A DNA stretch of 43,007 nt from a virus, in IMG/VR virus record IMGVR_UViG_3300036826_000023, positions 1-43,007 of that record, one strand, 5' to 3'. Of this stretch, positions 37,439 through 43,007 are shown piece by piece. Every line of letters begins with the position of its first letter. Position 1 is the stretch's first letter. Under the pieces are notes generated by a model that searched no databases, was not told the DNA's origin, and was given only the letters and a program-made list of their open reading frames with translations. The position numbers and the translations under genes were made by a program.

Positions 37439-37592
37439 TTGGATTCTCCTTGTGTGTACTGTGTATAGGTTATGTGATTGGGGTTCATTTGGCAAGCACT
37501 TGTACCTTTGGTTTAAAAACAAATTCTTGTACGCTTAGTACATACTTAGGTACGCTTCGCTCCGTCGCAGTTCTGGCCGAGTGAACGATTTG

Positions 37593-38227: not shown

Positions 38228-38288
38228 GTTTAGCCAAGCGACAAAGCTTGGCTAAACGCGACCGCGCAGCCCACTCGCCCGCGGTCGC
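38228..38288 (+). terminator. Paired stem-loops ending cassette module 1
   Basis: GTTTAGCCAAGC (38228-38239) pairs perfectly with 38246-38257. It is followed at once by GCGACCGCG (38258-38266) pairing with CGCGGTCGC (38280-38288). There is no T tract. The GCGACCGC arm recurs at 39340 and 40566. Confidence 0.72.
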
Positions 38289-38290
38289 AA

Positions 38291-38404
38291 TCGAACACTT
38301 GTTCGACGAACTCTTGTTCGATGACTAGTTACCGAACATATGTTTGTAGTTAGATATGACTATACGAACGTTTGTTCGTTACTAGTTATCGAACATTCGT
38401 TCTG
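38291..38404. promoter_or_regulatory. Cluster of five LexA-box-like palindromes
   Basis: CGAAC-N4-GTTCG-type sites lie at 38291-38306 (TCGAACACTTGTTCGA, a perfect match to the mycobacterial LexA consensus TCGAAC-N4-GTTCGA), 38306-38321, 38332-38347, 38364-38379 and 38389-38404. Two of them are preceded by ACTAGTTA[C/T]CGAACAT as a direct repeat 57 bp apart. They occupy the gap between cassette modules 1 and 2 and so probably regulate the genes from 38492. A phage repressor with the same specificity is the alternative to LexA. The remaining 38405-38491 shows nothing further except the leader of the next gene. Confidence 0.65.
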
Positions 38405-38491
38405 TGACGAAGTTCACACCCTAGTGACTAAGGTTCCTAGGTGGGATGCCGATATAGTAAGTGCAAGCAAGCACAACGAAAGGGAAAGCAA

Positions 38492-38704
38492 GTGATCGAG
38501 AATCTCCTCACCGTAATCAGTCACGGTTGGAAGAAGTACGTCAGCGAAGCCGGGCAGCCGGAGTTTCCGTTCCCCACGGATTACTTTGTCATGCACGTTG
38601 ATATCTTCCCGGAAAGCGTGATCACGAAAGACGCACCGGGAGTTCATGTCAACTTCGCCGAAATGTCCTACGTTGTTCGGTTCGGCGGGAGCGTAGTTCT
38701 GTAA
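38492..38704 (+). CDS. Hypothetical protein, 70 aa
   Basis: GTG 38492 follows GAAAGGGAAAGCAA, the genome's usual ribosome-binding leader; the frame is open further upstream to 38441 but that part has no ribosome-binding site. Compact protein (VIENLLTVISHGWKKYVSEA; HVNFAEMSYVVRFGGSVVL). GC-rich codons. No family recognised. Confidence 0.6.
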   Translation: MIENLLTVISHGWKKYVSEAGQPEFPFPTDYFVMHVDIFPESVITKDAPGVHVNFAEMSYVVRFGGSVVL

Positions 38705-38710
38705 AGTTTC

Positions 38711-38745
38711 CGGCGGGGAGGCTAAAGTTCTGAGTCTCCCCGCCG
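38711..38745 (+). terminator. Stem-loop after the 70-aa gene
   Basis: CGGCGGGGAG (38711-38720) pairs with CTCCCCGCCG (38736-38745), a perfect 10-bp GC stem just after the stop. Terminator or mRNA 3'-end stabiliser; no T tract. Confidence 0.65.
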
Positions 38746-38821
38746 ATAAATAAGAACACAGGCGGTACCACTGCGAAGGTCTAACCTAGAGTAACAGTAC
38801 GCAGAGCGAGCCTAAACAAGT

Positions 38822-38855
38822 CCTAGCTAGGGGAATGGACCCTAACCTAGCTAGG
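38822..38855. promoter_or_regulatory. Two CCTAGCTAGG palindromes
   Basis: Identical 10-bp perfect palindromes at 38822-38831 and 38846-38855, 24 bp apart, 34 bp before the 38889 gene. The spacing of about two helical turns suits an operator pair. Candidate binding sites only. Confidence 0.45.
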
Positions 38856-38888
38856 CACCATCCAACAAACAAGAAAGAGGATACAGAA

Positions 38889-39056
38889 ATGGCAGACGAA
38901 CTCACTCGGGCGAAGAAGCAGACAGCTCTCGTCAAGTTCTTCGGCAAGCTTCCCGGTCAATCTCTGGCGGAAATCGCCCAAGAGATGAAGCCGCTTTCGG
39001 ATTCGGACGTCGATGAGTTGTTCGGCGGAATCTCCGCCGGTACGCTGACCTACTGA
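38889..39056 (+). CDS. Hypothetical protein, 55 aa
   Basis: ATG 38889 (MADELTRAKKQTALVKFFGK) has AAGAAAGAGGA upstream; the ATG at 38835 lies among the palindromes and is rejected. Helical, with QSLAEIAQEMKPLSDSDVDE, which loosely resembles a small helix-bundle regulator. Unknown function. Confidence 0.62.
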   Translation: MADELTRAKKQTALVKFFGKLPGQSLAEIAQEMKPLSDSDVDELFGGISAGTLTY

Positions 39057-39065
39057 TTCAAACTT

Positions 39066-39092
39066 TCCCCGCCGTCAATCGGGCGGCGGGGA
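39066..39092 (+). terminator. Stem-loop between small cassette genes
   Basis: TCCCCGCCG (39066-39074) pairs with CGGCGGGGA (39084-39092). The ribosome-binding leader of the next gene follows at once. Could terminate transcription or separate cistrons. Confidence 0.6.
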
Positions 39093-39114
39093 ACAAACAA
39101 GAAAGGGAAACATC

Positions 39115-39297
39115 ATGGCAACTAACCACTACGATCTGACGGAAGGCGAACTCATCATCGAAGGTCTGAACCTTGTGTTCGCTGCTCGCCTTAGTTCAGC
39201 GAAGGTGAATGCTCGCCGCTACAACTATTCCGCCGCACGTTTCAGTCTCCTCGATGCTCAGACGGTAATGAATGCACTGGAGGCACGCTGCATGTAA
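39115..39297 (+). CDS. Hypothetical protein, 60 aa
   Basis: ATG 39115 follows CAAGAAAGGGAAACATC. Helical protein (LIIEGLNLVFAARLSS; SAARFSLLDAQTVMNALEAR). Codon use is GC-rich like its neighbours. Last gene of cassette module 2, closed by paired stem-loops. No family recognised. Confidence 0.62.
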   Translation: MATNHYDLTEGELIIEGLNLVFAARLSSAKVNARRYNYSAARFSLLDAQTVMNALEARCM

Positions 39298-39307
39298 ACT
39301 AAATCGC

Positions 39308-39371
39308 TTTGATCAGAGTTTCAGGTGCTCTGATCAAATGCGACCGCGCGCGGCAAGCCGCAAGCGGTCGC
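39308..39371 (+). terminator. Paired stem-loops ending cassette module 2
   Basis: TTTGATCAGAG (39308-39318) pairs with 39328-39338; GCGACCGC (39340-39347) then pairs with GCGGTCGC (39364-39371), with an inner CGGC/GCCG pair. Same architecture as 38228-38288 but with a different first stem. Confidence 0.7.
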
Positions 39372-39404
39372 GAAACGATTTAGCTTCAACTATGGCTTGC
39401 GAAA

Positions 39405-39511
39405 TGAGAATGAGTCTCATTACCAAATCGAACATATGTACGGCTCGTGAGAATGATTCCCATTATCATTGATCGAACATCTGTACGGCTATAAATCGAA
39501 CACCAGTTCGA
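39405..39511. promoter_or_regulatory. Composite Fur/Zur-box-like and LexA-box-like operators
   Basis: Two 21-bp palindromic sites, TGAGAATGAGTCTCATTACC(A) at 39405-39425 and its near copy at 39448-39468 (18 of 21 identical), resemble Fur/Zur boxes. The reverse complement of the second differs from the E. coli 19-bp Fur box at about three positions. Each is followed within 2-4 bp by a LexA-like site of the form TCGAACAT[A/C]TGTACGG (39428-39443 and 39473-39488). A full TCGAACACCAGTTCGA lies at 39496-39511. The unit repeats with a period of about 43-45 bp upstream of the 285-aa gene. The rest of the 39298-39633 gap (39512-39630) shows no further clear site. Confidence 0.6.
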
Positions 39512-39633
39512 TTCGCAAGTTGTTCTTCTGTTGGGTTTCCGTTGGGCTTGAGTTGTTTCTGGCCCATTATCTTACTACTTGTCGGGCCAACGGGGTCCGG
39601 CGAACCTAGTCCACTAGAAAGGGACACAACATC

Positions 39634-40491
39634 ATGGCAGGACTTGAACTACTCGCCCGATACGAGATTGACCTATCGGACCTTAACCTCGCCGCACTTG
39701 TGAAGTTGCGGGGAGAATACGAGACGATCAATAACGCACTTATCGGCGATAAGGATAAGCAGGAGTCTAAGGACTCAGAACTTAAGAAATACCTGCTCGC
39801 CGTTGTTTCGGAAGATGACGAAGTTACCGAAACAGTCAAGAATTTCGTTTCGGAAGTGCGTCATATGTTCTACACAATCGTAGACAACGATCCCCGAACC
39901 ATCATGCCACTAGTCGAGGCGATTTCGGAACTTAAGACGGACGTGCTTAACGAGCGTGACCACTGGCTTAACAAGGTCAAGCGCGAATCTGCTCCGGTAA
40001 AGGTCATCGACGAAGATTACGAGAACAAGCGGGCAGAGGCGGCGGAGATTGCCGAACTTATCCGCCAGCTTTACCCGCTCTTGTCGAGTCTCGTTCCGAC
40101 CGATAAGCGAGGCGACGAATTCGGCCCGGTAGAATTCCCGCTCATTGCTCAGAAAGAATCGGGCAAGGCGACCGGAAAGTTTCTGCCGAAACTTACCAAG
40201 TTGGCCCGTAGCCAGAACGAGGATAACCCTACTGGGCGAGCGGCCCAGAACCGTTACTTGCAGTTCACGTGGAACGGAAACGTTCTGCCCGAGGGAACGT
40301 TGCCGAGCGATGTTGCGCACGACTTTGTTTCGGATTTCAAAGCCGGGTTCGTTATTGACTGGACCGGAATCCGTGACCTTGCGAAGAAGGACGGCGTGGA
40401 AATGTTCGGCGATAAGCCGTGGACCCACGACTTTCCGACCGGAAGCCTGACAATTCAGGACGTGCGGCCCAATAAGCCGGAGCGCAAGTAA
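39634..40491 (+). CDS. Hypothetical protein, 285 aa (main gene of GC-rich cassette)
   Basis: ATG 39634 follows CTAGAAAGGGACACAACATC. The N-terminal 150 residues are helical and acidic with coiled-coil-like runs (DKDKQESKDSELKKYLLAV; EDYENKRAEAAEIAELIRQL). The C-terminal part is a mixed domain: LQFTWNGNVLPEGTLPSDVA, DWTGIRDLAKKDGVEMFG and HDFPTGSLTIQDVRP. Domain order is like that of the acidic 268-aa protein at 5690, which suggests a distant relationship, not proven. GC-rich codons mark the gene as compositionally distinct from the rest of the phage. It is probably controlled by the composite operators upstream. Confidence 0.72.
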   Translation: MAGLELLARYEIDLSDLNLAALVKLRGEYETINNALIGDKDKQESKDSELKKYLLAVVSEDDEVTETVKNFVSEVRHMFYTIVDNDPRTIMPLVEAISELKTDVLNERDHWLNKVKRESAPVKVIDEDYENKRAEAAEIAELIRQLYPLLSSLVPTDKRGDEFGPVEFPLIAQKESGKATGKFLPKLTKLARSQNEDNPTGRAAQNRYLQFTWNGNVLPEGTLPSDVAHDFVSDFKAGFVIDWTGIRDLAKKDGVEMFGDKPWTHDFPTGSLTIQDVRPNKPERK

Positions 40492-40565: not shown

Positions 40566-40601
40566 GCGACCGCGCCCGCCCAGGGCAGCGGTCGCTTTTT
40601 T
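40566..40601 (+). terminator. GCGACCGC hairpin with T6 tract
   Basis: GCGACCGC (40566-40573) pairs with GCGGTCGC (40588-40595), followed directly by TTTTTT, a textbook rho-independent terminator. Third copy of the GCGACCGC arm, closing the cassette. Confidence 0.85.
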
Positions 40602-41063: not shown

Positions 41064-41837
41064 ATGCCTACACCTGACGAACCAGAAGAAATACGAACCA
41101 ATCTTGAAAACCTAGCAAGGCGGGGGAAACATATTAACAGGGTACAGCGTTGGATACTCATAACCTGTTACGAGAACTACCACTCAGTCAAGGAACTCGC
41201 TGACTTGCAAAACGTAAGCTACCAAGGTATGTACGTCAACGTAAAGCGTTTAGTTGATCTCAACTTGCTAGACAAAGCGTACTCAGAAGGTCGAGAGTGG
41301 TTTTATAAATGTAGGTTCGATCTTTCCGAGACGGCGGATTACACGTATCGGTTTCGTATTAAGAAACAGAACCTAACATTTGAAGAACTACTCATGTATT
41401 ACTTTAGTAACGAGTTGAAATTCTACCCTCGACAAGTATTCTTGACCTTGATCTACCTCTACAAGCGTTCACTAAATAAGGCCGAAGGGAAACCTATTGG
41501 AAGTGTTACAGGAACCGAAGCCAAGACATTTGTGTTACGTATGTGTGAGCAGATAGAGGAGTTTGCTACCAACATGCGTATACTCACGGAGGGTAAACTC
41601 TTTGAGCAGACAGAGAATTGCCATGAGATGTATGGCCCTGTAGAAGGACCGGTCATGGAGGATTTAATGTCTCGTTTCGAGACAGACTTTGCTAACTTCT
41701 GGGCACATAAACTGTTTTCCACCAAGGGGCTGCAAGTCAGTAGTCCTAAAGAGTTAATGGAGGAAGCTCGACAGGAGTACATTAAGGATAAAAGAGTTGG
41801 GCCAAGAGAATGGTGGGCAGAGGACAGTCAAGGATAA
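41064..41837 (+). CDS. Winged-helix DNA-binding protein, 257 aa
   Basis: Residues 28-75 form a winged helix-turn-helix-like unit: RVQRWILITCYENYHSVKEL, then ADLQNVSYQGMYVNVKRLVD and LLDKAYSEGREWFYKC for the wing. The remaining 180 residues are helical, with no recognised domain. A MarR/ArsR-like early transcription regulator is a reasonable inference. The gene has its own promoter and appears leaderless, and the next promoter lies just after it, so it is expressed alone. A hairpin (GGACAGT/ACTGTCC, 41822-41843) spans its stop codon. Confidence 0.72.
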   Translation: MPTPDEPEEIRTNLENLARRGKHINRVQRWILITCYENYHSVKELADLQNVSYQGMYVNVKRLVDLNLLDKAYSEGREWFYKCRFDLSETADYTYRFRIKKQNLTFEELLMYYFSNELKFYPRQVFLTLIYLYKRSLNKAEGKPIGSVTGTEAKTFVLRMCEQIEEFATNMRILTEGKLFEQTENCHEMYGPVEGPVMEDLMSRFETDFANFWAHKLFSTKGLQVSSPKELMEEARQEYIKDKRVGPREWWAEDSQG

Positions 41838-42463: not shown

Positions 42464-43007
42464 ATGGACTTGTCAAGACAACAAATAGCTAAGGAAGCTA
42501 GTCTCCATGCTCGCTTCACTGAGCAAGACGTAAACAACTACTGGACTCAACGTGCTGTAGCCTACGCTAGACAGTACGAGGGTGACTTTAGTTTCATGCT
42601 CTCAATGAAAGCTAAGGCGATTAACCCTGATGGTACTCCGTCAACAGAAAGTTTCTCACCTGCACAAGTCAAGGCTATCCTGAACTGTGCTCGCAAAGAA
42701 GGTTCACAACAAGCCTCAGAAACTCTCATGGAACAAGTGGAAATTATCCAACCTGCTCCTGTAGAGGAACCTGTTCACTTCGATTTCACGGCGTTTGAAC
42801 AAGCTGTGGAACACAGTGAGGAAACTCCGAAACAGGATGACCCAGAGTACATCGAACTTAACAAGATCAACGCTCGTATTCTGGAAATTCAACGGCGGAT
42901 CAAAGAGATTAACACTCAATACGATCCGCTTGTGACTCTCCTACAGGAGTCAGAGAAAGAAGAAGAGGCTCTGTTTGAGGAGTTTCAGCGTGTCCTCGGC
43001 GAAATGC
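42464..43007 (+). CDS. SNF2-family helicase, N-terminal part (continues at position 1)
   Basis: ATG 42464 (MDLSRQQIAKEASLHARFTE) opens a frame with no stop to the window end; after removing the 140-bp overlap it continues as the 1-1807 frame. The N-terminal 155 residues hold a helical region with SFSPAQVKAILNCARKEGSQ, then an acidic spacer (PAPVEEPVHFDFTAFEQAVE) and the start of a coiled coil, before the ATPase domain. The spacer probably links a small targeting domain to the motor. It is read from the promoter at 41855. Confidence 0.9.
   Translation, partial: MDLSRQQIAKEASLHARFTEQDVNNYWTQRAVAYARQYEGDFSFMLSMKAKAINPDGTPSTESFSPAQVKAILNCARKEGSQQASETLMEQVEIIQPAPVEEPVHFDFTAFEQAVEHSEETPKQDDPEYIELNKINARILEIQRRIKEINTQYDPLVTLLQESEKEEEALFEEFQRVLGEM
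42868..43007 (+). repeat. Direct repeat of bases 1-140 (circular overlap)
   Basis: Bases 42868-43007 equal 1-140 except at 42994 (C) versus 127 (T), a synonymous Val codon change in the helicase. The same gene is continuous across it, so it marks circular closure of the assembly or terminal redundancy. Confidence 0.95.

Follow-up and report, generated by a model that had tools for sequence, protein, structure and literature searches.

Why would a phage set Zur-type and LexA-type boxes side by side, in duplicate, upstream of one of its genes? The region at 39396-39573 of a 43-kb virus record from IMG/VR raises this question; we refer to the whole analyzed stretch, 43,007 nucleotides long, as the window. 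Our main reading, to which we assign a probability of roughly 0.5, is that host Zur and LexA, and perhaps CRP, control the early promoters of this phage through sites lying mostly upstream of the putative core promoters.

The phage and its early control region

Positions 1-140 and 42868-43007 of the window are near-identical direct repeats with one difference seen, so the genome is probably complete, with overlapping or redundant ends. The encoded proteins include a P22/SU10-like portal, a phrog_14242 capsid, a terminase, an SNF2 helicase, PolA, a primase-helicase-like protein, and a Sak4-like protein. Relatives of the capsid are found in isolated phages of Arthrobacter, Microbacterium, and Cellulosimicrobium, pointing to a micrococcal actinobacterium; the host of this podovirus-like phage is thus probably an actinobacterium of the Micrococcales or a neighboring group. 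The isolated-phage collection held no nucleotide match to the window and no match to the 285-aa protein discussed below. Transcription diverges at about 37.5 kb, with early genes running rightward and the structural operon leftward (5' end near 37522). None of the window ORFs scanned gave a LexA-like or Fur-like protein, and no integrase family appeared among the protein matches listed.

The original prediction described two near-identical 21-bp palindromes, each followed by a CGAAC-N4-GT[A/T]CG site, with a third, perfect LexA-type site and a period of about 43 bp upstream of the 285-aa gene. All of these elements are present (Table 1). The palindromes, here termed Zur-type, share 18 of 21 positions (86%) and start 43 bp apart, while the CGAAC-N4-GTWCG sites are spaced by 45; two LexA-type boxes of the composite carry a mismatch in the right half. 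The description was also incomplete, having missed another five LexA-type boxes, which form a second cluster, and a CRP-type site. In total, the early control region holds two Zur-type, eight LexA-type, and one CRP-type site.

Table 1. Sites and neighboring features of the early control region (window coordinates).
Feature	Position	Strand	Basis or remark
GC-rich hairpin GCGACCGC...GCGGTCGC before the second cluster	38258-38288	+	terminator-like, without a clear T run
Five LexA-type boxes (38292, 38307, 38333, 38365, 38390)	38292-38403		pattern scan
Perfect CRP/GlxR-type palindrome TGTGACGAAGTTCACA (TGTGA-N6-TCACA)	38403-38418		pattern scan
Putative core promoter AAGGTT-17-TATAGT	38430-38458	+	by eye; G001 counterpart AAGGTT-17-TATACT
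Left arm CTTGCGAA of inverted repeat enclosing the composite array	39396-39403	+	identical in G001
Zur-type box 1 TGAGAATGAGTCTCATTACCA	39405-39425	+	pattern scan; host-genome boxes; G001 alignment
LexA-type box CGAACATATGTACG	39429-39442	+	one mismatch to CGAAC-N4-GTTCG (GTACG variant)
Zur-type box 2 TGAGAATGATTCCCATTATCA	39448-39468	+	in duplicated unit absent from G001
LexA-type box CGAACATCTGTACG	39474-39487	+	one mismatch; pattern scan, G001 alignment
Perfect LexA-type box TCGAACACCAGTTCGA	39496-39511		pattern scan
Right arm TTCGCAAG of inverted repeat enclosing the composite array	39512-39519	+	identical in G001
GTTGGG-N5-GTTGGG direct repeat, between array and putative -10	39530-39546	+	conserved, G001 alignment
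Putative -10 TATCTT of the 285-aa gene	39568-39573	+	by eye; without a good -35
285-aa gene, downstream of the composite array	39634-40491	+	homologues in G001 (55%) and G004 (37%)

Three similar hairpins (38258-38288, 39340-39372, and 40566-40601, the last with a T run) split the early region into transcription units, and similar hairpins also occur in the related phage G001. By eye, the arrays of both phages are flanked by a terminator-like hairpin on one side and a putative core promoter on the other, with a few tens of bases separating them from the downstream -35 region. They are mostly upstream of the best putative core promoters, without overlap. A further putative promoter, TTGATC-15-TATAAA at 39469-39495, is weaker and unconserved, with LexA-type boxes over and just after it; if used, it would imply classical repression.

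Statistics and identity of the boxes

We scanned the window for LexA-type sites with CGAACNNNNGTTCG, allowing at most one mismatch, and took 300 dinucleotide shuffles as the null. Eight sites were found, four of them perfect and all within the two clusters; the shuffles gave 0.87 on average and 4 at most, and 0 of 300 reached eight. The largest cluster contained five sites, compared with at most two in the shuffles. With at most one mismatch, the sites fit the actinobacterial SOS box, which is CGAAC-N4-GTTCG, preferentially with an inner A..T. For the 21-bp Zur-type pattern with up to three mismatches, the two sites were the only matches in 43 kb (chance 0.07), and the published 18-bp actinobacterial Zur core with up to one mismatch again returned these two alone, a result equalled in 19 of 300 shuffles. 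By count alone, the Zur boxes in the window are thus weak and not significant. In substance, the original prediction came through the scoring by which it was to be judged, here done with actinobacterial consensus patterns in place of host-specific matrices.

Because the Zur count was weak, we tested the identity of the box in other genomes, and the case for Zur rests on these and on conservation. With up to two mismatches, TGAGAATGRTTCTCATTATCA was found in 12 of 297 Actinomycetales genomes, while the reversed-pattern control gave 0. By location, which is the evidence here, the matches adjoin genes for CobW_C proteins (CobW/COG0523; three cases), ribosomal protein L28 (rpmB), ZnuA (znuA), an ABC-3 permease (znuB), and ABC ATPases. 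These neighbors agree with the known content of Zur regulons (PMC6103462, PMC7174638). Both window sites deviate by a single base from the published consensus for actinobacterial Zur boxes (tGaNNatSatNNtCa; taaTGaNAANNNTTNtCANta; PMC5472717), and a site in the related phage G004, TGAGAATGGTTCTCATTA, fits it fully. The original prediction had left the choice between Fur and Zur open. The motif does resemble Fur boxes in viral contigs L027, L043, and L100, which carry Fur-like tandem boxes, but the host-order matches sit at zinc genes, so that, on this sequence evidence, we prefer Zur over host Fur as the metal regulator.

The predicted likeness to the LexA box was borne out. Among the GTDB matches listed for the exact phage box ATCGAACACTTGTTCGA, about 56 of 80 are actinobacterial by hand count, and at several loci the box adjoins lexA- or recA-like motifs. 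Host-order genomes also contain the GTACG half-site of the composite, beside lhr and ruvA according to a by-eye reading of the genes. A scan of bacterial genomes for the composite Zur-LexA pattern gave no match.

The palindromes might instead be bound by a phage-encoded regulator, their likeness to Zur and LexA boxes reflecting convergence or the capture of host sites. A candidate is the 257-aa winged-helix-like protein at 41064-41837, which has a weak MarR_2 match and homologues (26-31% identical) in G001 and G004, both of which also carry the arrays. This explanation appears unlikely to us, as two unrelated motifs each match specific host operators over 14-18 bp and the phage proteins scanned contain no LexA- or Fur-like domain.

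Conservation of the arrays in related phages

Conservation in related phages, on which the original prediction also depended, was found for the composite in G001 and for both box types in G004. The capsid of G001 is 92% identical to that of the window, and its homologue of the 285-aa protein 55%. The composite is conserved base by base, with all 17 positions of the Zur core GAGAATGAGTCTCATTA identical; G001 also retains both arms of the enclosing inverted repeat (CTTGCGAA/TTCGCAAG) as well as the GTTGGG repeat. G001 has one Zur-LexA unit fewer, seen as a 40-column gap in the alignment; tandem duplication of one Zur-LexA unit in the window is the simplest reading of the repeat.

We also considered that the array is a structural element, such as a replication origin or an array of RNA hairpins, whose resemblance to operators is incidental. 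The palindromes do lie within the conserved enclosing inverted repeat, in a region of divergent transcription with flat skew. The first LexA-type box of the composite, however, reads GTACG in the window and GTGCG in G001, so that its mismatch was kept rather than mended, and the boxes have counterparts among host operators that adjoin zinc and SOS genes. This makes a purely structural role highly improbable.

G001 carries three LexA-type boxes in a second promoter region and, in a third, a CRP-type site with AAGGTT-17-TATACT. The position of the CRP-type site is kept, perfect in the window and with one mismatch (GTGACAAAGTTCACA) at the corresponding promoter of G001; in G004 it is at a different location. 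In G004, two Zur-type boxes are interspersed with four LexA-type boxes, and the homologue of the 285-aa gene is inverted, the array instead preceding the structural operon. When the viral collection was scanned for the composite, with its parts in either order, only G001 and G004 matched.

Arrays were also seen in more distant relatives (capsids 51-61% identical) among 44 records with related capsids. In G323 and G321, tandem Zur-type boxes precede a 284/277-aa gene by a few hundred bases; this gene and the 285-aa gene are distant homologues (hhalign E 5e-5, probability 67). In G317, four LexA-type boxes lie upstream of a 264-aa gene similar in size to the 285-aa gene; comparison of this gene with the 285-aa family did not establish homology. 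The Zur-type boxes of G323 and G321 adjoin TTAGGC...GCCTAA palindromes (L395, L397, about 1410-1440) that recall DtxR-family operators. A DtxR/IdeR reading of these palindromes found no support in one scan of host genomes (1 of 59).

Possible regulation by, or titration of, host regulators

That related viruses retain these host-type operators points to a virus that either responds to the stress regulators of its host or sequesters them. Given site identity and conservation, host Zur and LexA, and perhaps CRP, would bind the arrays, including the Zur-LexA unit apparently duplicated in tandem ahead of the 285-aa gene. Transcription of the unit at 38493-39297 and of the 285-aa gene would then vary with the zinc status of the host, with DNA damage, and perhaps with cAMP state. 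The arrays are mostly upstream of the best putative promoters and not over them. Simple joint repression through blocking of the promoter would thus fit their position less well than would activation from upstream or a cooperative form of upstream repression. In Streptomyces coelicolor, an upstream Zur box at zitB can activate rather than repress (PMC5472717, PMC7174638), and in the Bacillus thuringiensis phage GIL01 a phage LexA homologue activates (PMC6182141). In view of both cases, activation and repression would both be conceivable. Several observations count against the wiring: the array of G004 no longer precedes the 285-aa homologue, two LexA-type boxes of the composite are imperfect, the best putative core promoters lie outside the arrays, the 285-aa protein has no evident tie to zinc or DNA repair, and the Zur boxes of the window lack significance by count.

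The main rival to this wiring is that the arrays are decoys, drawing Zur, LexA, and CRP off host promoters as phage DNA multiplies; zinc uptake, zinc-independent ribosomal proteins, and SOS functions would be de-repressed, from which the phage would profit. Such titration would be suited by the density of host-type sites, up to 11 per genome within 1.2 kb. It would also be suited by the shifting of the arrays relative to genes between phages, with the neighboring gene inverted in G004 and with different promoters of the window and G001 bearing LexA-type boxes. Regulatory sites, on the other hand, would be expected where the arrays of the window and G001 consistently lie, between hairpin and putative promoter, and several LexA-type boxes are off their optimum. 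We regard titration as rather doubtful. Decoys of this kind would amount to DNA-level reprogramming of the host zinc and SOS regulons.

Wiring to host regulators has precedents in known phages that read a single one. GIL01 is governed by host LexA (PMC4551915, PMC6182141) and, like the window phage, has several host-type LexA boxes in its early promoter region, with no classical repressor found. The window phage differs in adding Zur boxes and a CRP-type site and in its probable actinobacterial host. Phages of Alphaproteobacteria carry arrays of host CtrA sites, associated with 'lytic deferment' (PMC9437464); there too, sites of a host master regulator show a skewed clustering in promoter regions, in several phage lineages. 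CtrA, however, is a cell cycle regulator, whereas the present arrays interleave predicted sites for two regulators, of zinc and of DNA damage. The Zur-type sites share the 7-1-7, 21-bp architecture of actinobacterial Zur boxes, but are on a phage, beside LexA boxes and upstream of a gene without a known zinc role. Searches of the open-access literature turned up no earlier case of a phage with Zur and LexA sites together; as far as that literature shows, the joint, duplicated Zur-LexA composite is new, while host-regulator boxes in phage promoters are already known.

If the wiring is real, the joint array would let a phage integrate several stress signals from its host, and the influence of zinc status on infection could be put to the test. 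More tentatively, a lineage with no detected repressor of its own may use host Zur and LexA together to time or defer its early program, with related phages swapping such operators at the same place.

The 285-aa gene offers few clues to the function that might be under such control. Its product has no Pfam match, the family has no match in the PDB by sequence, and the protein shows no recognizable link to zinc or DNA repair. Among viral contigs, its relatives were found only in G001 and G004. The AlphaFold model is unusable, with a mean pLDDT of 42.6. In G004, repeated GACTAGTC motifs and a perfect TGTGA-N6-TCACA palindrome lie upstream of the inverted 285-aa homologue (L023, about 1660-1790), and the structural operon contains a gene for a sulfatase-like protein (MPPNILFVLADDMRYEQ...; L023, 4517-5806).
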